This document shows, in pieces, positions 460 to 19,488 of a stretch of DNA of 20,981 nt. The notes beneath the pieces are model-generated. The model was given only the letters and a program-made list of their open reading frames with translations, was not told where the DNA came from and made no database searches. The DNA comes from a virus. Position numbers and translations under genes: made by a program. The DNA lies in the IMG/VR virus record IMGVR_UViG_3300037071_005043, positions 1 to 20,981 of that record. The stretch is one strand, 5' to 3'. Position 1 is the first letter of the stretch, and every line of letters starts with the position of its first letter.

Positions 460-1964
460 TGGAGTGGTCTAGGTATAGCTTAGATATCTTCGATCATTAC
501 GTGAATAGCCCTAGTAACCTAATGGTACAAGCTGCTCCAGGTAGTGGGAAGACTACGAATATCCAGCACATGTGGTCACTATTACCAGATGTACCTACTG
601 TTTACTTAGTATTTGGTAAGTCTAATCAGCTCTATGCTGAGTCGGTACTACCTCAGAAGGATGGTAGTAGTATCATGACGCTCAACTCACTAGGAGCTAG
701 AGCGATATATAGCAATCATGGTAGGACTGCTTTAGATACAAAAAAGGTAGCAGATATTGTTAAGAGGACTATCGTTAAGTGTAATTTATATTATGTCAGT
801 AAGAGTACGACTGAAAGGAATGATAATAGTTACGCCTTAGTAAGGGCAGTCAATACGGCAAAGATGTATAGCATAACTAATTTGTTAGCAGAGGATACCT
901 TTAATGAGATGGTGTCTCTGTATGATTTAGACGTTTATGAAGGTATCTATGAGGATACCAGAGAGATACTACGGATAAGTGATGAGATGGTAAGTACTAT
1001 TGACTTTAATGACCAAATACGTTTACCAGTTATACATGGTATGACTATGCCATTCTTCAAGCATGCCTTGAATGATGAGGTACAGGATTATTCACCTATA
1101 CAGGCTTTGTTAGTCGCTTCTCTCAGCGCTGAGAAGTATGTATTTGTAGGTGATAACAGGCAGTCAATATATGGTTTTAGGGGAGCAATGAACGATTCTA
1201 TGGAATACCTACGTCACAGGTTCAACTGTGATGTTTTACCTTTATCAATAAGCTACCGTTGTCCTGTATCGGTAGTGAATGAAGCAAAGAAGGTATATCC
1301 GTTAGATATAGAAGCTTGGGATAAGGCTACTAATGGTACTGTACAGGTTATCAGTGAGAGAGAGAGTATAGATCACTTGATGGAATTTCTCTCACAGTCT
1401 GATAAGGAGAATATAGATAAAGGTGAGAGATGGAAGGATACTCTTATCCTTTGTAGGGTGAATCGGCCACTTATCTCACTAGCCTTTGACTTGTTAAGGG
1501 AAATGATTCCTTGCTACGTAGTAGGTAGGGGGATAGAGCAAGGCTTATTAAGCCTGATTAAGAAAATGAAGGTGGTTACTGTTGGTGAGTTAATAAAGGC
1601 TCTCTCTATCTGGCTGGATAAAGAGAGAGCTATTGCTTTTGAAAAGGAAGATGAGGGTAGGCTAGCTAGGGCACAGGATAAGGTAGAGTCTGTCAGCTTA
1701 TTCTGTGAAAGGTGTCATGAGGATGACCATGTAAGCATGGTTAGCTCAATGATTAAGGATATCTTCGATAATGGGAATGGGGTATGTCTCTCAACAGTGC
1801 ATAAGGCAAAAGGAGCACAAGCGAAGTATGTTTTCCTTCTTGACTATGGCTTGTTCGGTAGTGCAATGAAGCGAGCTAAGAAAGCTTGGCAAAGGGAACA
1901 AGAAAAGAATGTGTTATACGTTGCTATCACAAGAGCACAGGAGGTATTGACGTATCTTTATTGA
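459..1964 (+). CDS. UvrD/Rep-like superfamily 1A DNA helicase
   Basis: ATP-driven 3'-5' DNA helicase of the UvrD/PcrA/Rep type, acting on phage DNA in replication, repair or recombination. All main motifs are visible: Walker A AAPGSGKTT (residues 25-33), Walker B DEVQD (206-210; DExQD is the SF1A hallmark), motif III VGDNRQSIYGFRG (about 230-242), motif IV SYRCP (about 264-268), motif V STVHKAKG (445-452) and motif VI LYVAITRA (486-493). Its 501 residues are well below the roughly 650-720 of cellular UvrD/Rep, so the 1B/2B subdomains must be reduced. It shares one nucleotide with the upstream gene (TAATG). A role in replication rather than repair is inference. Family assignment is firm. Confidence 0.93.
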   Translation: MEWSRYSLDIFDHYVNSPSNLMVQAAPGSGKTTNIQHMWSLLPDVPTVYLVFGKSNQLYAESVLPQKDGSSIMTLNSLGARAIYSNHGRTALDTKKVADIVKRTIVKCNLYYVSKSTTERNDNSYALVRAVNTAKMYSITNLLAEDTFNEMVSLYDLDVYEGIYEDTREILRISDEMVSTIDFNDQIRLPVIHGMTMPFFKHALNDEVQDYSPIQALLVASLSAEKYVFVGDNRQSIYGFRGAMNDSMEYLRHRFNCDVLPLSISYRCPVSVVNEAKKVYPLDIEAWDKATNGTVQVISERESIDHLMEFLSQSDKENIDKGERWKDTLILCRVNRPLISLAFDLLREMIPCYVVGRGIEQGLLSLIKKMKVVTVGELIKALSIWLDKERAIAFEKEDEGRLARAQDKVESVSLFCERCHEDDHVSMVSSMIKDIFDNGNGVCLSTVHKAKGAQAKYVFLLDYGLFGSAMKRAKKAWQREQEKNVLYVAITRAQEVLTYLY

Positions 1965-1984
1965 TCCCTCTTAGGGTAGGAGTA

Positions 1985-2045
1985 GCTTACCAAGTAGTAG
2001 GCTCTCCTCCCCCTGAAAGGAGGGTAGGCTAGGCATCTGGTAAGC
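1985..2045 (+). terminator. Nested hairpins after the helicase gene
   Basis: Starts 21 nt after the helicase stop. The outer perfect 8-bp stem is GCTTACCA (1985-1992) with TGGTAAGC (2038-2045). Inside it, TCCTCC and GGAGGG can form a 6-bp stem with one G-U pair. The only following tract is CTAAAAAGG, not a run of T, so this is not a classical intrinsic terminator. It may stop transcription or protect the 3' end of the mRNA. Confidence 0.4.
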
Positions 2046-2124
2046 CTAAAAAGGAGGGTAACTCACTCTTGTCTCATATGACATATGGGGAAAGTAGGAG
2101 ATGTTGAGGTAAAGGGTAGTGGTT

Positions 2125-2217
2125 GGTGTAGGTGGTTGAATTGTATGAGGTTATGAGTTTGTGGGAAGAGAAGTATTGATCTAATCCTCTCCATACCAAT
2201 ACCTCTTAACCTACACC
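2125..2217. repeat. Nested inverted repeats, possible structured RNA
   Basis: A 9-bp perfect stem GGTGTAGGT (2125-2133) pairs with ACCTACACC (2209-2217). Directly inside its right arm, CAATACCTCTT (2197-2207) pairs with AAGAGAAGTATTG (2166-2178) as 5+6 bp with a 2-nt bulge. Outside, AGGGTA (2113-2118) can pair with TACCCT (2229-2234). The stacked arrangement suggests a folded RNA or bidirectional terminator. No known RNA family is recognised. Confidence 0.4.
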
Positions 2218-2578
2218 TATTCATCCTATACCCTCTACTATCCCTAGTAGGTAAGCTCTGATATATGACCTATGTTCACACATGAGTGATGTATGCTCTC
2301 TGTGAGAGGAAGTAAGTAGCATAAGACTAAGTGGTATAGAAGATAGTCCTATCCTCCTGCTACCTATTAGAGATAACAAAGAAAGAGTAGTGAGGTAAGG
2401 CTACCTGTACTAGAAGAGAGATAATGAAGTGATGCTAGATGTACTAAGAAAGGAGAGAGTGGTATAGTAGCAAGTGTAGTAGTGTTAATAGAACACCACC
2501 TAATGAAAGTAGTTGTCCAGGGAACCCATCTAAATGACCTATAATCCCCCTTACACCCCCTAGTAAACACACAAATAC

Positions 2579-2664
2579 GAAATAAACATCCTTAGAATAA
2601 CAATCCTAGAATAAACATTCCTATACCAACGAATAACAAACTAAGGAAGAATAAAATCCTCTTA
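2579..2664. repeat. Five degenerate GAATAAacATcCTa repeats (iteron-like)
   Basis: Copies lie at about 2579-2594, 2595-2608, 2609-2623, 2631-2643 and 2649-2664. The first three are head to tail with a period of about 15 nt, and the clearest is GAATAAACATTCCTA at 2609-2623. The tract is AT-rich and lies outside any gene. Direct AT-rich repeats of this kind occur at replication origins, as initiator sites or unwinding regions, but no initiator gene is next to it, so the role is open. Confidence 0.5.
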
Positions 2665-2754
2665 GTCCTAACAGGCATATCCTCTTTTCCTCTGCTTAAG
2701 CTATCTGGAAGGGTTACTAGAAAGGTTACTAGAAGGAAGGAATCTGAAAGGGAA

Positions 2755-2778
2755 AGGAGGAATGAGGGTACTCCTCCT
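2755..2778 (-). terminator. Candidate terminator for the minus-strand operon
   Basis: A perfect 7-bp stem, AGGAGGA (2755-2761) with TCCTCCT (2772-2778) and a 10-nt loop, lies about 50 nt beyond the end of the HNH gene. Read on the minus strand it is followed by TTTCCCTTTC, a weak pyrimidine tract. It could end the long minus-strand transcript. The U tract is poor, so confidence is limited. Confidence 0.4.
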
Positions 2779-2823
2779 AGTGTTCTATAAAACCCTCCTA
2801 TCTAAATGAGCTACTTATCTACA

Positions 2824-2851
2824 GAGCTACTTGTAAGGAGTTACTTGTAAG
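2824..2851. repeat. 14-bp tandem duplication across a stop codon
   Basis: GAGCTACTTGTAAG (2824-2837) is followed at once by GAGTTACTTGTAAG (2838-2851), differing at one position; a partial third unit GAGCTA follows at 2852. The minus-strand stop codon of the HNH gene (2827-2829) lies in the outer copy. Because 14 is not a multiple of 3, the duplication shifted frame and set the last residues of the protein. Confidence 0.6.
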
Positions 2852-3714
2852 GAGCTATCTCTATGGTGGAGGAAATCACACTGCTTCCTTTCCAACGAAT
2901 CCTTAATCAGTGATTCTTCCCAAGTCTGCCATTGCATATTTTCTACTGAATCCTTCCCACCTGCACATAGTGGCGTAATATGATCTACCACATACCCATG
3001 ACACTTCCCTACAAAGCTATTTGTCAAAGGACAAGCATAGAGTTTTCTAAAATGAGAAACAGTACTCTTCCTCCTCTTCTCCACTACTGGTACCTTACCT
3101 GGTACTGGTACTGATGCGGAAGTAGCTATTGGTACAAATGGTATAGGATCAACATATGGTGTCTCCTTATCTGGAACATCTGGAAGTGGTATCTGGTAAG
3201 GAACAAAGGCTTTCTTACTAGGATCAACTAAAGGATCATTCCCTATCGGTGGAACAAACGACATAACAGGGACAATAGTTGATATCACATTACTTGCTGG
3301 TGAAGTAGCTGTGGCAATAGCAGCAACAGCAGTTATCTTCCAACAATATGTACCTATCTTCAAAGGAGGAGAACTCCATTGCTTCGTAGGATGTATCACA
3401 GTAGCAACATTACTCCATACCTTCCCATTACTAAGAGGATCACTCTCCACCTGCTTACAACCCTTATTCATCCATACCACATACCAAGTAACATCAGGCT
3501 GTCCCTCCATCGGTATATATGCCCATTCCAATAAAACAACCTGTTTCTCTACCACAGCTTTCTTCATCTTCTTACCACTACCAGCATGACTTGATGAACT
3601 TGATAAAGATAAAGGAAGAGAAAAACCACTACCAACCATACCAAGCATTGTACTAAGCATTATGCTACCATAGGCAAACAATAGAATAAGCAACATAATA
3701 AAGTAATTAAACAT
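2827..3714 (-). CDS. Exported or membrane-anchored FnIII-like/HNH endonuclease
   Basis: A 295-residue protein with three parts. Residues 1-30 are a strongly hydrophobic signal sequence or membrane anchor (FIMLLILLFAYG). Residues about 55-148 resemble a fibronectin type III fold, with a WYVVW strand, YCWKITAV near 123-130 and a closing SPASNV. A Pro/Val-rich linker (about 150-212) follows. Residues about 222-280 are an HNH nuclease: C228 and C238 bracket a CPLTN...GKC turn, then VDHITPLCAGG (243-253), N259, MQWQT (260-264) and C279. DHI-PL-GG-NMQWQT is typical of one bacterial HNH family. The start has AGGAG 7 nt upstream. It is the last gene of the minus-strand run. A secreted nuclease could act in the periplasm or outside the cell, for instance against incoming DNA; this is inference. 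Confidence 0.82.
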   Translation of the reverse strand: MFNYFIMLLILLFAYGSIMLSTMLGMVGSGFSLPLSLSSSSSHAGSGKKMKKAVVEKQVVLLEWAYIPMEGQPDVTWYVVWMNKGCKQVESDPLSNGKVWSNVATVIHPTKQWSSPPLKIGTYCWKITAVAAIATATSPASNVISTIVPVMSFVPPIGNDPLVDPSKKAFVPYQIPLPDVPDKETPYVDPIPFVPIATSASVPVPGKVPVVEKRRKSTVSHFRKLYACPLTNSFVGKCHGYVVDHITPLCAGGKDSVENMQWQTWEESLIKDSLERKQCDFLHHRDSSLQVTPYK

Positions 3715-3767
3715 TACCTAACTCCTCTTCTTTATTCCTATTACCGATAGGGATAGGGAAAGGAACA

Positions 3768-5828
3768 TTACTTAATCCCCCTTCTAAGAATCGGTGGAGC
3801 TATAACAGGAGGATTCACAGTGATATTAAAAAGATTACTTAACCCTGGTAAAATAGCACTATTCCCTGGTGTACTCGCAACTAACCTATACCCTATACCT
3901 GGAGCAGTAATCTTCAAGGTAGTAAATGAAGAAGCACCACTAACAGCAGCAACATCTACTGTCCCTATAAGAGAACCTGGTAAAGCTGAAGCTGTGGATA
4001 CAGTAACCTCTGCTGCACTTGCAAAAGGAAGAGAACCACCTGATGTTTCATTTAGAGAAGTCAACCTAATATACCTACCAGAGGTAGCAGTGAAACTAGC
4101 ATTCTTCAATGTAGAACCAGCAGACCATGTACCACTAGCTACAGCAGAACCCCAGGTAGAACCATTAGAGGAAACATGAACCTGATATCCTCCTATATTC
4201 CCACCTGTACCACCATCTTGCCTTGGCAAATAACCTAATCCATTTATGTTATATAAACCACCAAGATCAAGTATAAGCACATGTGGATGATTTGTACCAG
4301 CAGCGGAGTAATCTGTATGCCAGAAGGTACCACTATTTAAATCAACAGCTAACCCACCTGGATGTGATATATCAAAACTATCTGTGCTAACGAACGAGAG
4401 AACAGGAGTTCCCTGAGTATCACTCAATGCTAAGTGAATAACATCAGTACTCGTTGTATCAAGTGAACCATTACTATTCCTTACCTCTACCTTAACCAGA
4501 GGTAAAAAAGTACTCTCTACAGTATCAGCAGGTTGTATGCTAAAAACAAGAGTCTTTGGAGATACCACAACTCCACTTTCAAATGCTCCTATATCTGGTG
4601 CAGAGCCATTAAATGGAAATGTTGGTATCGCTACACCTGCATTTATAGCAGGGCTTCCTACATCTAGATTATAATTCCCACCGGGAGCATTAACAAATAA
4701 AGGATCACCTACCACACTACAATTCGTCTTAAAGGAGTCACATAGAGTATTACTAATGCTATTAGCAGAGCTACCTGCTTCTTGATAAACCCCATCTGAG
4801 GCATTCTGATAACAGAGATTATTCTTCGCCTGTGAATTATTCGTATACCCTAAATTCACACATTGCTGATTCCCTTGCACCACTGTATTATTCACCACTA
4901 AATTATTATTAGAAGTCTGTCCAGAACATGAAGATGCTAGTTGTATCCCATTTCCTGAGTTCCTCCCTGCCTTTATAATAAGATTATTATAAATTTGATT
5001 ATTTACCCCACAAAGGAGAATACCCGTTGCTCCTATCGTATCAAAGGTGTTATTCTTAACAATATTATTACTAGCTCCGTTTCCACCTCCTGCATATCCA
5101 TGAACCCCATAGCCAGAGATGTTAGCAAACCTACTCCCATCTAGTGTATATCCTGAACCAGACATATAAATCCCATAGGAGTAGCAGCAATTACAGGTAC
5201 TCCCTGGTGCCTGATTATAACCTATATCATGTATATCAAGGTTCTTAAAGATAACGTTAGTTACGTTACCCCCTCCAGATAAAGCATTAGTCACTGCACA
5301 ACTATCCCAACCTACAAACGTCTTCAGTTCTATATTCTGGAAGAGTAAATTATCTGTACCAATATCTGGCCTAATGTCAATACCAACTACAGGAGCAAAA
5401 GCATTTACTCCATCAAATACAAAGCCATCAAACACTAACCATTGAGAGTTCTGATATTCCCAGAATTGAAGAAATCGAGCACCTCCACTAGGTCTTAACA
5501 CCGCACCATGAAATACCTCTGACTTTACAGTGGTCTTTGCACCTGATGTTCCATTAGGAACTGACGCAGTGGTAATAACCTCAGTATAAACACCTGACTT
5601 GACTATTAAAGTATCACCTCCACTCATACACCCTATACCAGCTGCTATTGTTAACTTAGGTGTACCTGATGACTGAGCTGTTTGGCATGATACTCCATTA
5701 CTCCCATTTGTAGCGACATAGTACGTTGTTGCTTCACTTACAGATACAGATGTAAAGAGCGAAGCTGAAGCTGAGAATATACATAGGATAAGTGAAAGGA
5801 CACGTAGGTATTTATGAGCATGAACCAT
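3768..5828 (-). CDS. Exported beta-helix/discoidin-domain protein (tailspike- or adhesin-like)
   Basis: A 686-residue protein. Residues 1-34 are a Sec-type signal peptide with a likely cut near SEA-TTYY. Residues about 35-360 form a right-handed parallel beta-helix, as in tailspikes and polysaccharide lyases: Asn-rich rungs such as NNIVKNNTF and NNLVVNNTV. Residues about 375-418 match the bacterial 'choice-of-anchor Q' ending (NYNLDVGSPAINAG, PDIGAFE). Residues about 428-474 and 613-674 look like two halves of one bacterial Ig-like domain. Between them, about 477-611, lies an F5/8 type C (discoidin, CBM32-like) domain with FWHTDY, DLGGLYNINGLGYLPRQDGG and GRYIRL. It most likely binds, and may cut, surface polysaccharide. 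No catalytic residues can be named. The start follows AGGGG, which overlaps the upstream gene's stop. Confidence 0.8.
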   Translation of the reverse strand: MVHAHKYLRVLSLILCIFSASASLFTSVSVSEATTYYVATNGSNGVSCQTAQSSGTPKLTIAAGIGCMSGGDTLIVKSGVYTEVITTASVPNGTSGAKTTVKSEVFHGAVLRPSGGARFLQFWEYQNSQWLVFDGFVFDGVNAFAPVVGIDIRPDIGTDNLLFQNIELKTFVGWDSCAVTNALSGGGNVTNVIFKNLDIHDIGYNQAPGSTCNCCYSYGIYMSGSGYTLDGSRFANISGYGVHGYAGGGNGASNNIVKNNTFDTIGATGILLCGVNNQIYNNLIIKAGRNSGNGIQLASSCSGQTSNNNLVVNNTVVQGNQQCVNLGYTNNSQAKNNLCYQNASDGVYQEAGSSANSISNTLCDSFKTNCSVVGDPLFVNAPGGNYNLDVGSPAINAGVAIPTFPFNGSAPDIGAFESGVVVSPKTLVFSIQPADTVESTFLPLVKVEVRNSNGSLDTTSTDVIHLALSDTQGTPVLSFVSTDSFDISHPGGLAVDLNSGTFWHTDYSAAGTNHPHVLILDLGGLYNINGLGYLPRQDGGTGGNIGGYQVHVSSNGSTWGSAVASGTWSAGSTLKNASFTATSGRYIRLTSLNETSGGSLPFASAAEVTVSTASALPGSLIGTVDVAAVSGASSFTTLKITAPGIGYRLVASTPGNSAILPGLSNLFNITVNPPVIAPPILRRGIK

Positions 5829-5837
5829 AAGGAACCC

Positions 5838-6401
5838 CTACTTCTTAACTGTTCTAAAGAGAGCTATGAAGCAACGTAGTATCTTCTTTGCTAGGAAATA
5901 CTCTTCATCTACAACACCATGTAATCCACCTTTCAACGTAGCTAAATTCACAACAGCTATCCCATCTATCTGAGCATCTAAAGTAGCCTTTCTTGCATCA
6001 AGGGCAGCTTCTGCCGCTGCTAACGTCGTAATATTACATATATTACTATTAGCTAACTCATCTAGCAAAGCTTGTATCGGTGCATTAGCAGCAGCAATAG
6101 CAGCATCTACAGCATTCTTCTCTGTCTGAGTCATCTCAACAGCAAGTCCACCTACTACCTTCAGATACTTAAAAGGTGTAGCCACTAACAAAACTCTCTG
6201 TGACACTATAGATGCCTCAGCTACAGAAGTACAAGTACCATCACTTACAGTAGATGGGTCAACTGAGTAGATATACCTTACAAGGCGAGATGAATCACCA
6301 CAAACAAAATCGTTAGCCATCACTACATCTGATGTAATAGCTAAGGCTATAAGGGTTAAAAGGAGAAACGTCACCTTGTTTCTCATGTTCATAACCATCA
6401 T
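5838..6401 (-). CDS. Exported small tail-protein-like protein
   Basis: A 187-residue protein. A clear signal peptide covers residues 1-29 (TFLLLTLIALAI, likely cut VMA-ND). Residues about 78-118 carry KYLKVVGGLAVEMTQTEKNAVDAA, a pattern I associate with phage tail and appendage proteins (a V-EMT-EK-AVDAA segment), followed by an Ala-rich helical stretch likely to form a coiled coil (about 95-145). The C-terminus has a short hydrophobic, basic segment (KILRCFIALFRTVKK) that could be amphipathic. Cysteines at 34, 57 and 122 may form disulfides after export. GAGGAG lies 7 nt before the ATG at 6401. The gene lies 9 nt upstream of the beta-helix gene. The biochemical role is unknown. Confidence 0.72.
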   Translation of the reverse strand: MMVMNMRNKVTFLLLTLIALAITSDVVMANDFVCGDSSRLVRYIYSVDPSTVSDGTCTSVAEASIVSQRVLLVATPFKYLKVVGGLAVEMTQTEKNAVDAAIAAANAPIQALLDELANSNICNITTLAAAEAALDARKATLDAQIDGIAVVNLATLKGGLHGVVDEEYFLAKKILRCFIALFRTVKK

Positions 6402-6440
6402 ACATAAGCTCCTCTATACCTCTACTGATATACTGATAAG

Positions 6441-7232
6441 TTACTGATAGGATAAATACTCTGATGCCCTACATGTCATACCTGTCCCATTACCTCCATT
6501 ACCTGCTGTAGCTGTTCTAAACGAACCAGAGCCATCTACAAACACTACACCATTTCCAGAGGTACCATCACTACATTGGTCGAATCTCCACTGTCCAGTT
6601 ACAGCTCTGCTAAGAGAAGGATTTACTAACCTACTCTTACCAAGACTCTCTATTTCTCCTGGTGACAGAGCTACATTATAATACGTCACTGCTGTCAACT
6701 GTCCATTATATGCTACCGATGTACCTGAAGCAATATCAAAACACATCTTTAACACATTAGATGATATACTATCTCCTGCTGCAGTACTATTTACCAATAC
6801 TCCATCTTTATAAAGGTAAAGAGTACCAGAGGAATGCACCCATGTGAGATGTATCCATGTATCATTAGTAAACGTAGTACCTACACTTGAAGTACTTCCA
6901 GGATAGCTAAAAGCCCATAATTGGTCTGTAGTAGCTGATGCTCTATAGAAGCCTGTACTCTCATTTTGATCGGCTATTATAACCCTGCCATAGTATATAG
7001 CACCAGCTCCATTATCTGCTCCTGCTGATCCTGTAGGCTTAATCCATGCTGAAAGTGTACCTGTGCTAGCAGTGATAAAGTCACTTAGGATAGCACTTGT
7101 ACCGATGGTATCATCTACACCATCACAAAGGACACCAGCTCTTGTTACAGATACAGGTATGGATACCAATAGAAAGATGAGTAATAAGAAAGAGAGAAGA
7201 CTAATTCTTCGTATATTCCAATGTCGCACCAT
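6441..7232 (-). CDS. Exported LamG/concanavalin A-like lectin-domain protein
   Basis: A 263-residue protein. Arg-rich N-terminus and hydrophobic core (residues 11-30) make a signal peptide ending about at TRA-GVLCDG. Residues about 33-200 are a LamG-type jelly roll (Laminin_G_3/ConA-like): VLCDGVDDTIG, LSAWIKP (60-66), IHLTWVHSSGTLYLYKDG (127-144) and AVTYYNVALSPGEI (181-194). The last 60 residues, including GQWRFDQCSDG, are typical of the same family in phage and bacterial surface proteins. It should bind carbohydrate or a surface ligand. Its start codon and GGAGG binding site lie inside the 3' end of the upstream gene (32-nt overlap), implying translational coupling. A GTG two codons later is less well placed. 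Confidence 0.82.
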   Translation of the reverse strand: MVRHWNIRRISLLSFLLLIFLLVSIPVSVTRAGVLCDGVDDTIGTSAILSDFITASTGTLSAWIKPTGSAGADNGAGAIYYGRVIIADQNESTGFYRASATTDQLWAFSYPGSTSSVGTTFTNDTWIHLTWVHSSGTLYLYKDGVLVNSTAAGDSISSNVLKMCFDIASGTSVAYNGQLTAVTYYNVALSPGEIESLGKSRLVNPSLSRAVTGQWRFDQCSDGTSGNGVVFVDGSGSFRTATAGNGGNGTGMTCRASEYLSYQ

Positions 7233-8883
7233 ATACCTCCATATCTCCTGTGGCTGTATCTGCTGAGTCTGCTGGTGCTCTACATAACTTAACCTTAGCT
7301 AAGTCATTAGCTGCCATTGAATCAGTATTCACTATCGAGCAAACAATAACATCAAGAAAACCAACCGTTCCAGGTACAGCAGCATCATCACAATTATTCA
7401 CTGTGGCATAACTCTCCGTATTCACATCTATTGCATCCCCTGGTGTTGTAGCCATGATAGACACATCTATTGATACTCCTCCACTGGTAGCAGAAAGCAT
7501 GCTATACGGTACTCTTAACTGCGGAGCTGTACCATAATCAGGAGGTACAATAAACTGCCACCATAAACACTCTTGTGTAGCAGCATCAAATAATAACCTT
7601 GTATGATTCTCACTATTATCAATTACGCCAGGATTAGAAGTAGGTAACTTAGCTGAAGCTGCTGTGAAAGAAACCCATCCCTTCTGTATAGTCGAAACAA
7701 CCACCTCAGAAGATAATGTAGCATCAGCTGTTGTAACAACATAAGTAGCAGTTACAGGTGCTCCAGTACCACCAACAAGTAAGCTCTCTACCTTCCAACT
7801 ATTACCTGTCATACCTGTTGCTGTGAATCCTTCATCCTTATTACTCACAGTTATAGGTACATTTGCTACACCATTAAGGTTATCAGTAGCATTACCTGCT
7901 GCTATGCTAACAGTACCAGCTCCACTATCTGCTTTGTAGCATTCATACCTCTGTCCTATTGTACTAGAAGAAGCTACTGGAAGTGTACAGGTATAATTAG
8001 AAGCACCTGTTGTTATGTTAACTATATTATGTACTAGCAACGATACGTTAGTAGAAGCAGCAGTTACCTTCTCTCTCTTAGCTAAGATCGAAGTAGCATC
8101 TACCAACACACCAGTAGAACCAGCTATCACTGTTCCTGCAGCATTATAGAAAGGTACCTCATTTATATTCCCTGATGTTACAGTACCAACACCAGTACTA
8201 CTACTACATCCAGTCCCAGCATCACTCAAGTCAGCACAAGTTGGTCTTACAACTGTGAATGGTGCTCCAAGACTAGCCTGCTTTATGAACCTTGATGTAC
8301 CTCCTGTAGTAGAGAAATCTGTTACACCTGAAGGAAAGGTAATAACAGAAGCTCCTCCTGTAGAAGGTGCATATAAATCAAGTGTACCAGATGTAGTACC
8401 TCGTAACCGAAAATTACCTGAGAGGAAGGAATGTAAACCAGTCCATACAGGAGCTATGGCAGGATCAATAGCATGTGCAGCATCACTTCTTAAACACGTA
8501 GTAGCTACACCATTAACTACAGTCATACCGATTAAGGATGAAGGATTAGCAAAGGTACATCCTCCTCCTACACCACTACCTGATGTTCTAATCTGATGAT
8601 TAGGCTTATCCCATATATCATTCCATATCGTGGTCTCTTGTTCAAATGCTCCTTGTGCTCCTACACCTGGAGTATTCATTAACTGATGATTAACTCTATC
8701 CCATACATCATTAAGTATAGTCCGATACGATGCTTGTGTACTCTGAGCACTTGTATCACTTGTAGTGGGAATATCACTTGTCGTAGAAAGATGTTGTGTT
8801 ATACCAATGAAGCAGATACTGATTAATAAAGTAAGCAAGACATATTTATTCCTTATCCCTCTACGTAGTAATGGCTTCAACAT
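7201..8883 (-). CDS. Tail-fibre-like protein with N-terminal membrane/signal segment
   Basis: A 560-residue protein. Residues 1-14 are basic (LLRRGIRNK) and 15-29 hydrophobic, giving a signal peptide or signal anchor. Two related short repeats follow: NDVWDRVNHQ (58-67) and NDIWDKPNHQ (88-97). Residues about 158-240 match a motif series common in phage fibre proteins: LRGTTSGTLDLYAP, ITFPSG, then TCADLSDAGTGCS. The C-terminal 180 residues are a beta-rich, probably jelly-roll domain (LWWQFIVPPDY near 440) ending VYGATLEYTKN. The start at 8883 has GGAAGG 10-15 nt upstream and a candidate promoter at 8921-8951. It is the first gene of the exported cassette. Function as receptor-binding appendage is inferred. 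Confidence 0.78.
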   Translation of the reverse strand: MLKPLLRRGIRNKYVLLTLLISICFIGITQHLSTTSDIPTTSDTSAQSTQASYRTILNDVWDRVNHQLMNTPGVGAQGAFEQETTIWNDIWDKPNHQIRTSGSGVGGGCTFANPSSLIGMTVVNGVATTCLRSDAAHAIDPAIAPVWTGLHSFLSGNFRLRGTTSGTLDLYAPSTGGASVITFPSGVTDFSTTGGTSRFIKQASLGAPFTVVRPTCADLSDAGTGCSSSTGVGTVTSGNINEVPFYNAAGTVIAGSTGVLVDATSILAKREKVTAASTNVSLLVHNIVNITTGASNYTCTLPVASSSTIGQRYECYKADSGAGTVSIAAGNATDNLNGVANVPITVSNKDEGFTATGMTGNSWKVESLLVGGTGAPVTATYVVTTADATLSSEVVVSTIQKGWVSFTAASAKLPTSNPGVIDNSENHTRLLFDAATQECLWWQFIVPPDYGTAPQLRVPYSMLSATSGGVSIDVSIMATTPGDAIDVNTESYATVNNCDDAAVPGTVGFLDVIVCSIVNTDSMAANDLAKVKLCRAPADSADTATGDMEVYGATLEYTKN

Positions 8884-9015: not shown

Positions 9016-9426
9016 TTACTCCTCAGTATCTACTCCATTAGCTACTCTAGTACCTACCTTTACCTCTACACTCCCTTCCATCATAGCCTTATCTACCATA
9101 TCCTGATTCAACTGATGGAGTTTATTCCTAGCTTCATCAAGAAGTGAGATGATACTAGCTAAAGCATCACTAGATAAGATACTCTTACTTATCTCAAAGG
9201 CTTGTTCCAATGTAGTAATCATCATAACGATACCATTAAGACTCAGAAGTAGTGGTGAAGGAGCTTCTACTTTTTCTTCCTCCTTTTCTTCTGGTATCTC
9301 TTCTACTGGTGTAGTAGAATCATACTTCTCTTCAGCATTTACTTCAGGAGAATCATTCTTTCCTTCAGCTTCTTCAGTAGACCCTCCAGAAAGCATATCA
9401 CGAATAATCCTACGTCTCTCTGCCAT
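9016..9426 (-). CDS. Hypothetical acidic protein
   Basis: A 136-residue protein that I do not recognise. A basic start (MAERRRIIRDML) is followed by a very acidic, probably disordered stretch (residues about 17-55, many E, D, S, T and P). Residues about 58-112 form a predicted helical region (LLSLNGIVMMITTLEQAFEIS, then SIISLLDEARNKLHQL), perhaps a coiled coil, and a short strand-rich tail follows. There is no signal peptide or metal motif. AGGAG lies 7 nt before the ATG. Its place just before the exported cassette could point to a chaperone or assembly role, but nothing in the sequence proves this. Confidence 0.68.
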   Translation of the reverse strand: MAERRRIIRDMLSGGSTEEAEGKNDSPEVNAEEKYDSTTPVEEIPEEKEEEKVEAPSPLLLSLNGIVMMITTLEQAFEISKSILSSDALASIISLLDEARNKLHQLNQDMVDKAMMEGSVEVKVGTRVANGVDTEE

Positions 9427-9479
9427 TCTTTACTCCTTTTCCTTATACCTTTATATCCATATAAATTACTTTACCACCT

Positions 9480-9689
9480 TCATGCACACTCACATACACC
9501 ACGCATCTCTACTCTTACACCACACACCACACACTTCACCTTACAACAACTCACTACACTTTCACACTTTGTACACAACACACACTTACATGTATCTTTA
9601 TTACCTTCATTAATCTCACCTAGATCATCTTTAACCATACCACTATTACCCTTACCTGGTAGAGGAAATATCTGATATAAACCTACCAT
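9480..9689 (-). CDS. Small cysteine-rich protein
   Basis: A 69-residue protein if started at the ATG at 9689 (GAAGGAAG immediately upstream). A longer form from a GTG at 9731 has no binding site. The last 36 residues hold ten cysteines in CxC, CxxC and CC spacings (CKCVLCTKC, SCCKVKCVVC, VCEC), which suggests zinc binding or a disulfide-rich knot. It overlaps the 3' end of the 127-residue gene by 38 nt in another frame. The DNA here is a biased TGTG/CACA-rich tract, so part of the cysteine content could be a composition effect. It may not be a real gene. Confidence 0.45.
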   Translation of the reverse strand: MVGLYQIFPLPGKGNSGMVKDDLGEINEGNKDTCKCVLCTKCESVVSCCKVKCVVCGVRVEMRGVCECA

Positions 9690-10095: not shown

Positions 10096-10632
10096 TCATA
10101 CAAAAAATCTCTTTGCTATGTTTTTTGTACGCCAGACGCTTGATGCAGCAGCACTGACACTACTTCCTGTTTTTCGCTTTATCTGCTCAAAACTATAGCC
10201 TAAAACCCATAGATCGTACAGATAAAGTTCTTTTTCTTGCACAGTGTTTGATAAGTGCCAATAAAGTTCCTTGATAAGACAGCGTAAATACCCTCTATGT
10301 GCAAGTTGTGGGTGAAGTGGTTGAGGTATTTTGTTCCCAAGTTTCTTTTCTTCCCGAAGAACTTTTTGCATTGTATGCTGCATGTATTGACGAATATGCA
10401 GTAACTTATCAGCGTTTTTTGTGACATCAAACGTATCAAGTCCTTCAGCGATCCCTAGATTTCCTGCGCTGATATATTCTTCAAGTGGTATGCGGTAGGC
10501 ATGTCTCCAACACCAGTATTTTGCCATATCTTTTCGCTGCTCAAGAAGATACTGTAGTTCATCCTCTGTAAGAGGAGTAGTCACTTCATGCTGTTCTAGA
10601 GGAGATACCATCATATCTTCTTCACCTTCCAT
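10096..10632 (-). CDS. Sigma-70-like RNA polymerase sigma factor
   Basis: A 178-residue protein resembling a minimal sigma-70 family factor, which would bind host core RNA polymerase and direct it to chosen promoters. Residues about 27-95 match region 2: a leading helix with EQRKDMAKYWCWRHAY, then EEYISAGNLGIAEGLDTFD (51-69; the usual form is DLIQEGNIGLIKAVEKFD), then a helix with IRQYMQHTMQKVLREE. Residues about 137-176 look like a region 4-type helix-turn-helix (LWVLGYSFEQIKRKTG, then SAAASSVWRTKNIAKRFF). The classical -10-recognition residues are only partly kept. The start at 10632 has AGAAAGGG upstream and overlaps the membrane-protein gene by 11 nt. It uses CGN and GCG codons and T runs more than its neighbours, hinting at transfer. 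Confidence 0.7.
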   Translation of the reverse strand: MEGEEDMMVSPLEQHEVTTPLTEDELQYLLEQRKDMAKYWCWRHAYRIPLEEYISAGNLGIAEGLDTFDVTKNADKLLHIRQYMQHTMQKVLREEKKLGNKIPQPLHPQLAHRGYLRCLIKELYWHLSNTVQEKELYLYDLWVLGYSFEQIKRKTGSSVSAAASSVWRTKNIAKRFFV

Positions 10633-10645
10633 CTTTACCCTTTCT
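10613..10645. repeat. Direct repeat copy B flanking the sigma-like gene
   Basis: 33 nt covering the ribosome binding site and first codons of the sigma-like gene, and the last codons of the membrane-protein gene. It is 28/33 identical to 10016-10048. The shared core is TGGAAGGTGAAG preceded by AGAAAGGG. Confidence 0.75.
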
Positions 10646-10933
10646 CACATCATACCTAGAATTATTCATCATGCTTAAACAGAGACCAATAACACCAGTA
10701 GCTAACATGAGTCTAGCTATCATATTGGTATAAGATTCCTCATGTCGTGGTATAAATCCCTGACCAAATGATATATCAAAGGTTATTAATCCTAATGTAA
10801 ATGAAAGACAAGAGAAAAGTATGAATAACTTATCCTTCCAGTCATCCTTAAAGCACCAGAGGATAATAAGACTACAAGTAAAGCCTAGTATCGTCCATAT
10901 GTTGCATATATATACCATAACTGATACCATCAT
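10622..10933 (-). CDS. Three-helix membrane protein (holin-like candidate)
   Basis: A 103-residue inner-membrane protein with three predicted transmembrane helices at about residues 7-26, 34-54 and 70-88, a charged loop (KDDWKDK) between the first two, and a basic C-terminal tail (RYDVRKGKDGR). Size and topology fit a class I-type phage holin, but no family signature is seen and no lysin gene is in the window. Its start overlaps the stop of the upstream coiled-coil gene in an ATGA arrangement; M1, M2 or M6 could be used, as the binding site is weak (GGTGA). The pairing with a tail-anchored protein supports a lysis role by context only. Confidence 0.65.
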   Translation of the reverse strand: MMVSVMVYICNIWTILGFTCSLIILWCFKDDWKDKLFILFSCLSFTLGLITFDISFGQGFIPRHEESYTNMIARLMLATGVIGLCLSMMNNSRYDVRKGKDGR

Positions 10934-11319
10934 TTCACCAATGGCGTAGTAGAAAATAACGCTAGTATCTTTGGTAACACAAAGGGAGCTACTATAGCTA
11001 TAACAGTTAAACCACCCATTATCTTCTTCACAAGAGACGATATATCATCAAATTTCCTTTCGATAGCATCTAAATGAGTCTTAGACTCAATTTTAGACTC
11101 TTTTATATTTAACGAAGTCTCTATCCTCATATCCTTCAAGTTATTCTGTATACTCGTAACTGTAGCATCTATACCTGTTATTCTGGTGTTAATTACACCT
11201 CTCCATTCAGCGAACTTCTCTATATCTATGGAAGGTAATAGATGTTTATTATCTGGTGATTCATTTGTGTATATAATTTTTTTTCCCCATTCAGTTCCAT
11301 ATAGTATCTCTTTATCCAT
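10930..11319 (-). CDS. Coiled-coil protein with C-terminal membrane anchor (XhlA-like)
   Basis: A 129-residue protein starting at the ATG at 11319, chosen because GAGG stands 6 nt upstream; a start four codons earlier (11331) is possible. Residues about 42-98 form a long amphipathic helix or coiled coil (VINTRITGIDATVTSIQNNL, IERKFDDISSLVKKI), followed by one transmembrane helix (about 100-122) and a short tail. This layout resembles haemolysin XhlA-type proteins, which work beside holins, and also some spanin-like or superinfection-exclusion proteins. It overlaps the three-helix membrane protein by 4 nt. The function is not proven. Confidence 0.65.
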   Translation of the reverse strand: MDKEILYGTEWGKKIIYTNESPDNKHLLPSIDIEKFAEWRGVINTRITGIDATVTSIQNNLKDMRIETSLNIKESKIESKTHLDAIERKFDDISSLVKKIMGGLTVIAIVAPFVLPKILALFSTTPLVK

Positions 11320-11364
11320 TCTATTCCTCATCTAATAAGTAAGATGATGAGTAAGCTAATAGGG

Positions 11365-13020
11365 TTATAACCCACATTCCCCACTTCTACAGTTAAAGCC
11401 TTCTTCAAGAGAAGCATTCCCTTTACCAAGCATAGATAAAGCCTCTGGTAAATCAACTGGTACTACTGGCTGATTATCTCTAGCTCCATCAGGGTAGAAA
11501 GTGATACCCCTAAGATATGGTAGGTACTTAATCAACACAGGAGCTATCTTATCCTCTATCCCCTCCTCATACGTAGGTAAATTAACTGTGGATGAAATAG
11601 CATTATCAACATACCTCTGCATAAATGCTTGAAACTTTATCCTTCTCTCTATCCCCTCAATACTCTGGGATAAGGTATAAGCTGTATCAATATCTCTTAC
11701 ATCATACCCCTCATCTATCCACTTCTGTACAATAGGCTCAACGACATACTCTGTAACATACCCTTCACCATGCTCTTGTGTCTTTAATGTATTATACGTC
11801 CTCTTATATGCTGTATGAAATACAGGTTCAATACCTGGAGTAGTTCTACCTCCTGCTATAGAAATAGTACCTGTTGGTGCAATAGCCCTTTTCGCTACAG
11901 GTTCATTCATTGATAGATAGCTAGACCATTGCTTAGCTGAACCTTCACTACCTCTTACATAAGCCTGTAACCATAATGGTAACTCACCTTCACAATAACC
12001 ATAAGGTAATCCCCTCTGAATAAACCATTCAGCTAATCCCATAATACCTAGACCAAGCCTTCTATACTTATTCTTTACATCTCTAACTAATGGTAGTGGT
12101 ACATCTGTGTATATTGTATTACATAATAAGAATATCACTCCTAACTCAGATATAAAATCCATCTCATCTGGACTATCAATATTAGCTATATTAACTGAAC
12201 CTAAACAGCATGAGTCACCAGATGTATCACTAATAATCTCTGTACAAGCATTCCTTAATACCTGTCTATCATCATCAAACTGAAATCCAGGTTCACCATA
12301 TTGACATGCGCTCTTTAATGTATTATAAAAAGAATCATTTGCTTTTGTATAAGTAGTACGTTCTGTAGAGGAATGGAAAGAGTATAACCAGTTCTGGTCA
12401 AATCGAGTAGATATATTTGTATGACTTAGCGAGACCTTATCCTGCTTCATCTTTATAAAGGATAATATATCAGGATGATCCCATGGTAAAGAAGCATATC
12501 CTGCTCCTCTCCTTTCACCACCTTGTCTAGCGGCTTCAGCAACAGCATTCTGTAGCTTAATCAAAGCTAATGGTCCTGATGCAATCCCTCCACTTCTACC
12601 TAGAGGAGAACCATAGTGTCTTATATTACTATAATCAACACCTATACCACCACCAGACATAAACATTAAAGTACACTTATGTATAAGATCAGCCCAACCT
12701 TCCCTTGTATCTTCAGCCCTTAAGCAGTAACAATTATCTGTTTGGTGATAAGGTCTACCTGCTTGACTAAGTATCCTTCCACCTGGTATGAATTTTCTTG
12801 TTAATATAGCCTCATAGATAGCATCATATATATCTCCTGGTAGAGACTTACCTGTTCTATACTCTGAACATCCAAGGACATTCTTACATACCCTCTCAGT
12901 GATATCCCTCCATGACTCAATTCTATCCTTATATACATGAGCATATCTTAGAGTGAGAATCCTCTCAGCGTAGTTATTAAAGGAAGGGGAGTGTATATTT
13001 TCGGATAGAACTAGTGTCAT
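11365..13020 (-). CDS. nrdJ: Class II (adenosylcobalamin-dependent) ribonucleotide reductase
   Basis: Makes deoxynucleotides from ribonucleotides in the cytoplasm for phage DNA synthesis. The active-site triad is visible as NACTE (N257, C259, E261; compare NxCxE). The redox pair is C97 (in DNCYCL) with C271 (in SCCLGSVN). C544 and C549 (CRSGEC) form the C-terminal shuttle. Other family signatures are SGGGIGVDYSNIR (122-134), APTGTISIAGG (381-391), VDNAISSTVNLP (471-482) and LRGITFYPDGARDNQP (503-518). The last is typical of class II and replaces the YY radical-path region of class I; no small-subunit gene is nearby. At 551 residues it is compact, with no N-terminal ATP-cone, so dATP feedback at that site is probably absent. 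Class II is likely but not certain. Confidence 0.9.
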   Translation of the reverse strand: MTLVLSENIHSPSFNNYAERILTLRYAHVYKDRIESWRDITERVCKNVLGCSEYRTGKSLPGDIYDAIYEAILTRKFIPGGRILSQAGRPYHQTDNCYCLRAEDTREGWADLIHKCTLMFMSGGGIGVDYSNIRHYGSPLGRSGGIASGPLALIKLQNAVAEAARQGGERRGAGYASLPWDHPDILSFIKMKQDKVSLSHTNISTRFDQNWLYSFHSSTERTTYTKANDSFYNTLKSACQYGEPGFQFDDDRQVLRNACTEIISDTSGDSCCLGSVNIANIDSPDEMDFISELGVIFLLCNTIYTDVPLPLVRDVKNKYRRLGLGIMGLAEWFIQRGLPYGYCEGELPLWLQAYVRGSEGSAKQWSSYLSMNEPVAKRAIAPTGTISIAGGRTTPGIEPVFHTAYKRTYNTLKTQEHGEGYVTEYVVEPIVQKWIDEGYDVRDIDTAYTLSQSIEGIERRIKFQAFMQRYVDNAISSTVNLPTYEEGIEDKIAPVLIKYLPYLRGITFYPDGARDNQPVVPVDLPEALSMLGKGNASLEEGFNCRSGECGL

Positions 13021-14679: not shown

Positions 14680-15047
14680 TTACCAAGATGACAATAAGGA
14701 AGAACCACATGGGTACAGGTACTATAACCTTCCTACAAGACTTCTATGACTACATGAGACCAGATAAGAAAGCTGTTTTACAAGAGTGGATTAATAAAGG
14801 TAAGGTTACTAACATAAAGAGAAATGTCCCATTAGGTACAGGTGGATTTAAGCAAGTTGAGTTAAGGATAACTCACCCTGATTTTCCAGATAAGTATAAA
14901 GATGGCACATTCAGGCTTAACTTTGCTATGGTATACAACGGATGGAATAAGAACGTTATCCTTGATAACATCTCTGTCTGTATTGATAAGAAATGGATAG
15001 TAGTAAAGGAGTATGCCTCAAAGCATGAGAAGCACGAAGAAGAGTAA
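14676..15047 (+). CDS. Hypothetical protein upstream of terminase
   Basis: A 123-residue protein from the ATG at 14676, which overlaps the preceding stop (ATGA). An in-frame ATG at 14709 with AAGGAAG 6 nt upstream gives 112 residues and is an equally good choice. The sequence is basic at the start, then alpha/beta, with TFLQDFYDYM, VELRITHPDFPDKY, FRLNFAMVYNGWNKNVILDN and a Lys/Glu/His-rich tail. No helix-turn-helix is obvious, so although its place just before terL would suit a small terminase subunit, the sequence itself does not show that. It overlaps terL by 35 nt. Confidence 0.6.
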   Translation: MITKMTIRKNHMGTGTITFLQDFYDYMRPDKKAVLQEWINKGKVTNIKRNVPLGTGGFKQVELRITHPDFPDKYKDGTFRLNFAMVYNGWNKNVILDNISVCIDKKWIVVKEYASKHEKHEEE

Positions 15048-16617
15048 TGAATATAACATAATAGACTTCTTTCCTAACTGTGTACTTCCTTCATGCGAGA
15101 GAGCTAAGGATGGATTACATCAGCATATCTATCCTCATCAACAAGCTATCCTTGACAGTACAAGTAAATACCTATACTGTCAAGGTGGTGTTGGATCAGG
15201 GAAAAGTGTACCGTTCGCTATCAAAACTGTCTATCTATCTCTTACAGTACCAGAAAACGTTGGTGTTGTATCGAGAAAAGACTTTAAGATTTTATTCAAG
15301 TCTTCTTGGTTAGATATTAAGAACTGTATCAAGCGTTTAGTACAGAAGAATATCATAGAGCCACCTAGATATAGTGATAAGCATCAAGGTGATTATACAA
15401 CAATTGAATTTAAGGAAAACGGCTCTATACTGTACGCTATGCAAGGGAAAGCATGGATTGAAGCTCTAGGCCCATCTTATGGTCTCTTCTGGATAGATGA
15501 TGCACAGGAGTCATCAGAGGAAGTCTTTGTAGGGAATGAAGTATCTGCTGGTCTTATCTCTCGCCTTCGCCTACCTCATGTTCACTTTGATAAGAAGACA
15601 TATAAGAAAGATACTAGGGAACATGGTTCTCTTCATGGTATGATCTCTACTAACCCACCTCCTTATGGTCACTACCTTCATAAGCTATTTGGTAAAGAAT
15701 CTGGCTTCTATAAACTTGGTGATGACTTTGTTGAACATATGCAGGTTAATACGAATGAAAATCCTGCTGTTGGTGATGATTATATTAAAGGTATCACTGC
15801 TATTCAGTTAAAGATGGGTCGTTCTAGTAATGTTATTAGGAGAGTGATCGGTGGAGAAAGCATAGCTGCCTATGGTGGTCTTAGGGTCTACCCTGAGTTC
15901 GTCCATGCTAAGCATGTTGATTACGTTACATATAAACCAGAGGTACCTATTGTACGTAGCTGGGATTTTGGCTTTCTCCATCCTGGCGTCTTATTTAGCC
16001 ACCTTTATAAATGTCCTCTCTCATTTAACCACTATGTCTCCTTATCAGAGATAGCTGATGAGTCTTCACTAAATGTATGGGATTTATATAAAGTAGTAAA
16101 GGACATGACTGATAGACTCTATAAAGATTGCTGTCTTATCCTAGACGCTGGTGATAGAGCTGGTGCTAGAGCATCTTCGAGTAATAGAGATAACAGAAGT
16201 GATATGAGAATCCTCTCTAATGACTATAACTTATCCTTCAAGTGGAGACACTTAGACTTAGCTAAGTCTCTTGAATACATGAGATCACTACTAAAGACAA
16301 AGTGTAAGTGTGGTCTTGAGATGATAGTTATATCTAACAACTGTCCTGTCCTTATCGGAGCACTAGAAGGAGGGTATAAGTATGGTAAGCAGAGAGATGG
16401 AAAGATAAGTGAGAAGCCTGTAGAAGATAGATACTTTGCAGATATAGCTTGTGCATGGCGTTATGGTGCTGAGTGCTATGTGAAGTGGGGTATCCCTTTC
16501 TCATATCATAATGAGATATCTTCTGAAAGTAGGTTATATCATAGTAGGAATCGTAAGGAATCATGGTCGTGGATGGAAGCATCCCCATCTGACATAGCAA
16601 AGCTAGTTACGTCATAG
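15013..16617 (+). CDS. terL: Terminase large subunit (packaging ATPase/nuclease)
   Basis: The 534-residue motor that pumps DNA into the procapsid at the portal and cuts concatemers. Walker A is GGVGSGKS (58-65). Walker B is LFWIDDAQE (158-166), where DD stands in place of the commoner DE; E166 may be the catalytic glutamate. The coupling motif is STNPPP (212-217). The RNase H-like nuclease acids are likely D318 (SWDFG), D378 (LILDAG) and D477 (FADIACAWRYG). Length is usual for the family. The ATG at 15013 lies only 1 nt after AAAGGAG, so the in-frame ATG at 15025 may be used. An 11-bp perfect inverted repeat lies within it at 15150-15185, just before the P-loop codons. Confidence 0.93.
   Translation: MPQSMRSTKKSNEYNIIDFFPNCVLPSCERAKDGLHQHIYPHQQAILDSTSKYLYCQGGVGSGKSVPFAIKTVYLSLTVPENVGVVSRKDFKILFKSSWLDIKNCIKRLVQKNIIEPPRYSDKHQGDYTTIEFKENGSILYAMQGKAWIEALGPSYGLFWIDDAQESSEEVFVGNEVSAGLISRLRLPHVHFDKKTYKKDTREHGSLHGMISTNPPPYGHYLHKLFGKESGFYKLGDDFVEHMQVNTNENPAVGDDYIKGITAIQLKMGRSSNVIRRVIGGESIAAYGGLRVYPEFVHAKHVDYVTYKPEVPIVRSWDFGFLHPGVLFSHLYKCPLSFNHYVSLSEIADESSLNVWDLYKVVKDMTDRLYKDCCLILDAGDRAGARASSSNRDNRSDMRILSNDYNLSFKWRHLDLAKSLEYMRSLLKTKCKCGLEMIVISNNCPVLIGALEGGYKYGKQRDGKISEKPVEDRYFADIACAWRYGAECYVKWGIPFSYHNEISSESRLYHSRNRKESWSWMEASPSDIAKLVTS
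15150..15185. repeat. 11-bp perfect inverted repeat inside terL
   Basis: CCTTGACAGTA (15150-15160) and TACTGTCAAGG (15175-15185) are exact reverse complements with a 14-nt loop. This is the longest perfect stem noticed in the window. It encodes part of LDSTSKYLYCQGG, just before Walker A. It could be a packaging signal, a nuclease or regulator site, or an RNA hairpin that tunes expression. Confidence 0.7.
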
Positions 16618-18942: not shown

Positions 18943-19488
18943 ATGGCTGAAGAACAGAGTGACTTTGAGAAAGCACAGAACTTTATCAAGGAACAAGTAG
19001 ACAGTCGATTTGACCAGAAGTATATTGAACAGCAACAGAGGCAACAACAGAGGGATGTTAATCCACAAGAAGTAGCTCGTAGACAGATGGGTGATACTGT
19101 ACGTTCCTTTGTAGGACAAGATATTGATGAAGCTAAATTCATAGCTGCTGATGCTCGTGATTATACACGCTTTTATAAGAGCAATCCTTTAGCAGGTGAA
19201 TATGAAGCAGAGGTAGAGGATACCTTTACTAAGTTGAAAGATGCAGGGAGAGCTACTACTCGTGAGGACATCCTTCGTTACATCGTAGGTAAGCAAGCTG
19301 TAGATGAACCTGATAAGTTTACTGAACGTCAGACAGCTAGAAGTAAAGCTGCTCTTGATAAGGCTAGTTCTGCTGTTGACTTTGGTAGTGGTAGCTTGGA
19401 AAAGGCAAGGAATGATCCTAAGTGGACAAACTTTAGTGAGTTATCACTAGAGGAGATGGAGAAAGCTCTTGATGGTGTTACGTTCTAG
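18943..19488 (+). CDS. Scaffold-like protein
   Basis: A 181-residue, highly charged, helical protein placed directly before the major capsid gene, as scaffolds usually are. Residues 1-50 include the Gln-rich coiled-coil YIEQQQRQQQRD. The middle holds amphipathic helices rich in D, E, K and R. The C-terminus ends FSELSLEEMEKALDGVTF, similar to the short helix by which many scaffolds grip the capsid protein. The start codon immediately follows the previous stop, with AGGAGA 9-14 nt upstream. No protease is seen in the window, so whether it is cleaved or leaves intact cannot be told. Confidence 0.72.
   Translation: MAEEQSDFEKAQNFIKEQVDSRFDQKYIEQQQRQQQRDVNPQEVARRQMGDTVRSFVGQDIDEAKFIAADARDYTRFYKSNPLAGEYEAEVEDTFTKLKDAGRATTREDILRYIVGKQAVDEPDKFTERQTARSKAALDKASSAVDFGSGSLEKARNDPKWTNFSELSLEEMEKALDGVTF

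Follow-up and report, generated by a model that had tools for sequence, protein, structure and literature searches.

The window analysed in this study, a stretch of 20,981 nucleotides that represents one metagenomic contig and is a fragment, codes for the terL, portal and MCP of a tailed phage. The ORF check of the window showed five ORFs, here named A to E, on the minus strand at 8883-2827, exactly where the earlier note had placed a run of five genes. They are packed as one operon with intergenic gaps of -32, 39, 9 and 53 nt, and Shine-Dalgarno sequences are clear upstream of A, B, C and E and weak upstream of D. Head genes occupy the other strand, which in this window places the cassette outside a tail or structural block. 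Upstream within the same minus-strand block is the gene for the ribonucleotide reductase (RNR) large subunit (11365..13020, minus strand; phrog_84, E=2.6e-67), which shares 60% identity with the RNR of the related locus G004 and serves as a synteny marker; in G004 its own run of exported genes follows. Directly after E, a terminator-like hairpin (2755..2778, minus strand) with a 9-pair stem and a T-rich tail was identified as a consensus match only. A promoter proposed earlier for the cassette was not recovered, as no minus-strand promoter-like site occurs near 8.9-9.1 kb and promoter-like sites in the window are fewer than in shuffles. A longer minus-strand unit thus seems to finish with the cassette and the terminator-like hairpin at 2778-2755.

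Gene A (7201..8883, minus strand) encodes a 560-aa fibre-like protein with 10 cysteines in its mature part. Its signal sequence or signal anchor spans aa 1-28 (8800..8883, minus strand), MLKPLLRRGIRNKYVLLTLLISICFIGI, with the ribosome site AGGAAGGA upstream. A conserved 'ILNxVWDxxNxxLxxTP' module was found at aa 53-105, and sister phages encode the C-terminal domain (aa 414-558) as a protein of its own in the tail block (G001_24425, L002_14803); the AlphaFold model of A is poor, with a pLDDT of 34. Gene B (6441..7232, minus strand) encodes a 263-aa LamG (concanavalin A-like) protein that reaches 50.4 bits against Laminin_G_3 (PF13385, E=3.4e-13; curated cut-off 27.6). Its signal sequence, aa 1-32 (7137..7232, minus strand), is supported by the classifier and by alignment with sister proteins, and is likely cut between SVTRA and GVLC. 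Signal-less LamG proteins occur in sister tail blocks. The 187-aa product of C (5838..6401, minus strand), with 4 cysteines, belongs to no family. Its signal sequence (aa 1-29; 6315..6401, minus strand) has an n/h/c pattern with a V-x-A site, a GAGGAG ribosome site and a likely cut between VVMA and NDF. No relatives of C were found by a single-protein scan or by tblastn against 50,697 phage records, and its AlphaFold model has a pLDDT of 50.5; with no family match and a poor model, the label 'tail-like' once given to C was not supported. Searched by tblastn against the same 50,697 phage records, B and D also gave no match.

Gene D (3768..5828, minus strand) encodes a 686-aa protein composed of a right-handed beta-helix (PF13229) and a CBM32-type F5/8C domain (F5_F8_type_C, PF00754, E=3e-19; 70 bits, curated cut-off 28.2), and its PDB relatives are CBM32-containing galactose oxidase/sialidase with E down to 1.5e-28. 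Its signal sequence (aa 1-33; 5730..5828, minus strand) is an exact extension relative to sister proteins, with cleavage likely between SVSEA and TTYY. Gene E (2827..3714, minus strand) encodes a 295-aa exported FnIII-like and HNH nuclease-type protein, with a signal or anchor region at aa 1-30 (3625..3714, minus strand), MFNYFIMLLILLFAYGSIMLSTMLGMVGSG, and a GAGGAG ribosome site. Against HNH (PF01844), E reaches 13.5 bits, below the curated cut-off of 21.4, and single-protein scans with full-length E and with the portal gave no matches; alignment queries returned matches where single-protein scans gave none. E carries the signal, the Cys pair and the DH-GG-D-NMQWQ-KD-E motif of the exported phage HNH family as defined in this analysis, and its cysteines and motif are conserved with relatives from that family. 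Among the viral relatives, a signal of the Sec or lipoprotein type is found from at least one in-frame start in 78/80 and from the first start in 59/80. The FnIII-like domain of E resembles exported small proteins of G001, G004 and G030. A member of this widespread family, E is probably a free enzyme.

Sec-type signals were predicted with a logistic classifier trained on 122 HNH-family signal sequences versus 96 phage packaging, capsid and enzyme proteins, with an AUC of 0.993 in 10-fold cross-validation and false positives at P>0.9 in 0/96 cytoplasmic controls. All five cassette proteins scored high (A, P=0.988; B, P=0.996; C, P=0.992; D, P=0.993; E, P=0.960), and TerL, portal, scaffold, MCP, helicase, RNR and other credible window genes had P <=0.48, which agrees with the claim that the head proteins are without export signals; the exceptions in the window were a spurious antisense ORF at 9149-9613 (P=0.94) and a doubtful 67-aa ORF (P=0.60). 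In the window's own phage family, which comprises 52 loci, P>0.9 was recorded for 30/508 proteins of at least 110 aa, and thus at this background of about 6% five consecutive signals would occur by chance with a probability of ~7e-7, positions not counted. A basic n-region, a hydrophobic h-region and small residues at -3/-1 were all found in B, C and D, while A is without a clear cut site and E without a basic n-region. The basic N-terminus and hydrophobic stretch reported earlier for all five were therefore confirmed as Sec-type signals, each with P>=0.96, except for the n-region of E, which has no positive charge ahead of its hydrophobic stretch and makes E the weakest case. Judged from the sequences, export of A to E is near certain. 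A lipobox or outer-membrane anchor was not seen in A to E, and lipoprotein anchoring was rejected, as was a SAR endolysin, for which A to E have no muralytic domain.

It might be argued that the signals are false, and that virion proteins of the usual cytoplasmic kind simply have hydrophobic N-termini or that starts were called wrongly, since the signals rest on an in-house predictor and neither A nor E has an ideal signal. We consider this very unlikely in view of the clean controls and of the strong ribosome sites at 4/5 called starts, which speak against misannotated starts. Furthermore, signal character is retained in diverged A homologues (29-32% identical), signal-less homologues start at the signal ends, and cysteine numbers are biased to even. 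Even cysteine counts were found in 29/35 exported phage proteins versus 151/341 signal-less ones (p=9e-6), and in 5/5 window proteins (10, 4, 4, 12 and 6 for A to E). An even cysteine number is a mark of disulfide-folded periplasmic proteins (PMC7678975), thus the excess fits proteins that form disulfides as they fold in the periplasm, and it is evidence independent of hydrophobicity.

Among the family loci, exported fibre and beta-helix genes are found repeatedly next to the terminase but on the other strand, and some members have them within the tail block; signal-bearing appendage-like sets thus recur in relatives. Signal-bearing A homologues were identified in G008, G036, G039 and L288. 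An assembly chimera, or contamination by a fragment of a bacterial secretome, could be suspected in a single metagenomic contig, yet this is extremely improbable and is contradicted by the independent contigs G008, G036, G012, G004 and others, which have these gene types in the same position. Sister homologues further indicate how the signals are placed. D consists of a signal plus TTYYVATNG, and sister tail proteins start M-TTYFISTTGN (others M-TNYF). The ATGTI protein and LamG of L002 consist of a signal plus the start shared with signal-less G001 proteins, and neighbouring ATGTI-domain and LamG proteins are signal-less in several unrelated phages. The collar fibres of L002 and L171 are a signal plus a start equal to residue 1-2 in L172, with the tail-fibre N-terminal segment retained directly after the cut site; a single annotated phage record matched this collar-fibre N-terminus. 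Because the first residues of signal-less sister homologues coincide with those of the mature window proteins, the signals look like precise additions. In G008, exported and signal-less members of the module are mixed.

The tagged sets in related viruses suggest that the attachment apparatus of some tailed phages is completed outside the cytoplasm, and we tentatively prefer a model in which the proteins mature in the periplasm and then dock on tails when the cell lyses, with free lectins, depolymerases and nuclease as a close second. A to D, of adsorption and matrix type (a fibre, a LamG lectin, a small protein and a beta-helix/CBM32 protein), would be produced as Sec preproteins; their movement over the inner membrane by host Sec and their folding with disulfide bonds in the periplasm have good support in the sequences, and signal peptidase would cut most of them. 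At lysis, the periplasmic appendages may meet the cytoplasmic tail-bearing heads, and at least the fibre-type proteins may attach to tails as a last extracytoplasmic assembly step, with E most likely released alongside as a separate free nuclease. Related tailed phages could then swap cytoplasmic and periplasmic appendages by exact gain or loss of a signal, the appendages being Sec-made and disulfide-folded and the virion completed at lysis, which we put forward with equal reserve.

It is also quite conceivable that the exported proteins never enter the virion and act as free disulfide-bonded lectins, a depolymerase-like beta-helix and a nuclease in the periplasm, at the infected-cell surface and in the matrix after lysis. 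They might there loosen polysaccharide and extracellular DNA, or cover receptors on debris and so spare the progeny, and we give these roles the same credence. The export and cysteine evidence applies identically to this reading, and free soluble phage depolymerase spreading around plaques is well known (PMC8253255). In addition, the cassette lies opposite the head genes and near RNR and other non-structural genes, with like positions in G008, G036, G012 and G030, and an exported HNH nuclease and FnIII proteins occur in the same run. Docking is further weakened because E is an enzyme type and not an appendage, because signals could be placed this precisely through exact domain boundaries alone, and because the window, as a fragment, leaves its own tail block unseen. 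Signal-less fibre- or spike-like genes are kept in the tail block of six relatives (G001, G002, G008, G012, G030 and G039), and G030 has beta-helix proteins of both kinds, a separate signal-less one in its tail block and an exported one, thus exported copies may be accessories.

On the other hand, the tail blocks of G039, G004 and ctLwi270 have exported homologues among their genes, and the tail-fibre segment after the cut site in L002/L171 would be needless in a free protein; both argue against purely free proteins. In G039 the exported A homologue lies inside the tail block, flanked by two virion structural genes. G004 is complete, with a 127-nt end overlap; its exported proteins include a tail-block spike and a 590-aa fibre (phrog_9942 tail fiber), and none of the fibres recognised in it lacks a signal. 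In the complete Manatee Spring phage ctLwi270, all fibre-type proteins have P >=0.93 (one only from an upstream start), among them a Collar-domain tail fibre (PF07484, E=1.7e-23).

The strong hydrophobic stretch of A in the window has no good cut site and may be an uncleaved anchor, which would suit surface display and superinfection exclusion, whereby envelope-attached proteins mask or occupy receptors and E cuts incoming DNA in the periplasm. Exported lectin-like domains bind sugars, and a periplasmic nuclease would be well placed against incoming DNA. However, B, C, D and the A homologues of G039 and L288 have signals predicted to be cleavable, A to E carry no lipobox or outer-membrane anchor, and the literature searched held no precedent, so that this explanation is unlikely. 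The set of meanings first proposed (display, secretion, receptor shielding and membrane-dependent tail assembly) was the right one, and two of them remain with comparable weight.

Tailed-phage assembly is taught as cytoplasmic, and known tailspikes fold in the cytoplasm; to our knowledge, no tailed phage assembles appendages outside it. The open-access literature searched contained no description of tailed phages with Sec-exported tail appendages; on tail fibres that are exported, or on an HNH nuclease exported by phages, it yielded only exported endolysins and unrelated papers. Recurrent precise signals on fibre, lectin and beta-helix proteins, together with the cysteine signature, would mean that tail assembly has a new extracytoplasmic step or else that phages have a 'secretome' of lectins, depolymerase-like proteins and nucleases. 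Either reading alters the prediction and production of receptor-binding proteins with regard to export, disulfides and true N-termini, and homologue pairs with and without a signal allow the question to be tested directly.

Podovirus tailspikes and fibres that contain pectate-lyase or lectin domains share with the cassette the beta-helix, LamG and CBM32-like domains, the collar domain (in relatives) and the tail-block location (in some members), but they are signal-less, whereas the cassette proteins have Sec signals and the even-cysteine signature. Exported phage endolysins, such as fOg44 Lys44 with a true signal peptide and the SAR endolysin of P1, some of them under disulfide control (PMC6116005), are likewise phage late proteins on host Sec; they are lysis enzymes, in contrast to the adhesin-type, beta-helix and nuclease-type proteins of the cassette. 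Inovirus coat proteins (M13 pIII and pVIII) are virion proteins made as Sec preproteins, as is proposed here for the appendages of the cassette. Inoviruses are filamentous ssDNA phages extruded through the membrane and have no terminase or portal, and assignment of the window to Inoviridae was rejected since it carries terL, portal and the major head protein of a tailed phage. Exported phage and prophage HNH proteins ('CP...CxGYVVDHI...NMQWQ...KDxxE') resemble E in sequence, signal and cysteines, but they are mostly stand-alone proteins of ~90-130 aa, whereas E is a fusion that includes an FnIII-like domain and a proline-rich linker.

The window is a linear IMG/VR virus record of 20,981 bp and an incomplete genome. 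Its plus strand carries terL (15013-16617), a portal gene (16642-18432), a scaffold-like gene (18943-19488) and the MCP gene (19652-20947); A to E are the last five genes of a minus-strand block that runs from 13418 down to 2827. A first rule set identified a signal or anchor in all five A-E products, a signal in no other window gene and a bare hydrophobic stretch in two further ones. Since it was permissive when run on shuffles, a logistic model was trained with 122 N-termini of an exported HNH family as positives and, as negatives, 96 from packaging, capsid and enzyme proteins (cross-validated AUC 0.993; at P > 0.9, sensitivity 80% with no false positives). With this model, which is calibrated yet not a fully independent substitute for SignalP because its positives were HNH proteins alone, with signals passed by the first rule set, A-E scored P = 0.960-0.996 and the remaining credible window genes P <= 0.48, bearing out the earlier note, which had claimed export signals on all five proteins and none on the head proteins. 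Ribosome sites back the start codons of A, B, C and E, that of D being weak; gene starts outside the window were set by a simple rule.

Comparison with relatives suggests that the signals are precise additions to the proteins. Sister D proteins are signal-less and begin M-TTYFISTTGN or M-TNYFLSTTGN, while window D has a 33-residue signal ending SVSEA, followed by TTYYVATNG. LamG proteins start M-PLTFDGVDD in the sister phage G001, signal plus GVLCDGVDD in the window, and signal plus RQSAAGATD in ctLwi270 (MW202554), a complete Manatee Spring phage outside the family. The neighbouring ATGTI domain lacks a signal in G001, G008 and several unrelated phages and is exported in ctLwi270; likewise, the Collar-type fibre lacks one in L172 and is exported in ctLwi270 and L171. 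Since forms without a signal outnumber signal-bearing ones among the relatives found, we infer that gain of signals is the simpler direction. In ctLwi270, exported fibre, ATGTI-domain, LamG, polygalacturonase-like (0.93, from an upstream start only) and Collar-domain fibre proteins were found, and portal and MCP scored low; three further Manatee Spring phages have fibres of the ordinary kind, with no signal, thus the trait is not universal among them.

Exported proteins of bacteria favour even cysteine numbers (PMC7678975). Among exported phage proteins of at least 150 aa with cysteines, HNH proteins omitted except window E, 29 of 35 had an even number, against 151 of 341 lacking a signal in the same genomes (Fisher p=8.9e-6), and with three or more cysteines 25/29 vs 94/223 (p=5e-6), p-values that are optimistic because homologues are not independent and a few likely ORF artefacts were taken out by hand. 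The bias is independent of hydrophobicity, and cysteine content was about twice that of signal-less proteins. Export and oxidative folding are well supported by sequence.

Domain matches were LamG for B, beta-helix plus F5/8C for D and a weak HNH, below the Pfam cut-off, for E; a family match was sought for A and C and none was found, nor did either give a structure model of usable quality. The F5/8C part of D is nearest to carbohydrate-binding modules of galactose oxidase, sialidase and NagJ, thus D probably binds carbohydrate and belongs with the beta-helix proteins of depolymerase/tailspike type. Adjoining the cassette are a small membrane protein with several hydrophobic stretches (10622-10933) and a protein with a single C-terminal membrane segment (10930-11331), possibly lysis genes; upstream, a 178-aa protein (10096-10632) with weak sigma-factor similarity (phrog_351, E=0.018) could regulate the cassette.

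An MCP alignment search recovered 52 loci, with G004, G008 and G010 among the closest relatives (MCP 69-73%) and the sisters G001, G002, G030 and G039 at about 45%. The earlier note's cassette has counterparts in the family. The window, G008 and G036 carry exported beta-helix and/or A-type genes in the interval from helicase to terL, oriented against terL; G030 and, by inferred contig wrap-around, G012 have them at equivalent places. G004 (L233-L235) is apparently complete, its ends overlapping by 127 nt (45,226 bp unique), and can serve as reference genome for the family. Its minus block resembles that of the window, with a 114-aa gene, RNR, small genes, an exported 102-aa gene, an exported fibre of 590 aa (phrog_9942 tail fiber, E=1e-7), a gene whose 150-aa product starts with a hydrophobic stretch (P=0.30), an exported 125-aa gene and exported FnIII genes.

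That the exported products dock on tails is a tentative reading, to which we give somewhat short of an even chance; it draws on tail-block positions in G039 (an exported A homologue of 826 aa with 10 Cys, the number in window A), G004 (an exported spike) and ctLwi270, on the signal-bearing Collar-domain fibre, and on complete genomes in which no signal-less fibre was recognised. Alternatively, the products might act free, off the virion, which we consider only slightly less likely: the window cassette lies on the opposite strand, an exported nuclease-type protein adjoins the other cassette proteins, and signal-less fibre- or spike-like genes coexist in G030, G039 and other members. Expression from a vector with the pelB Sec signal is reported to yield a Klebsiella phage depolymerase in soluble, active form (PMC8253255), and endolysin export via signal peptides is known in phages (PMC6116005).

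Searching with an alignment of E and a Manatee Spring phage protein matched 129 viral loci and 70 from bacteria or prophages. In 78 of 80 viral proteins some in-frame start gives a Sec or lipoprotein signal (in 59 the first start does), C228 and C238 (E numbering) are each 87% conserved, and DH, GG, D, NMQWQ, KD and E are near-invariant. Exported HNH proteins, putative nucleases, thus form a widespread phage/prophage family. Its pattern is CP..CxGYVVDHI..NMQWQ..KDxxE plus signal and conserved cysteines, on at least 129 viral contigs (viral set L007-L086) and at least 70 bacterial contigs (genomes L087-L156), many of the latter Proteobacteria and Acidobacteria MAGs; no description of the family was found in open-access literature. 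Between scaffold and MCP genes, G001 (L164, 9442-10110) and G030 (L258, 10836-11638) encode small FnIII-like proteins that are exported and carry a conserved Cys pair, G002 has an exported HNH protein in that slot instead, and the two domains are fused in window E. L055 (4919-10109) and L056 encode two exported proteins in close proximity, one GDSL-lipase/CBM-like (496 aa) and the other of 861 aa, with an exported HNH gene nearby. An otherwise unrelated phage, L288, encodes a 1720-aa protein with NPWDKPNE repeats (585-5747) and, nearby, a small protein that is exported and bears the A-type ILNNVWD motif (7914-8069).
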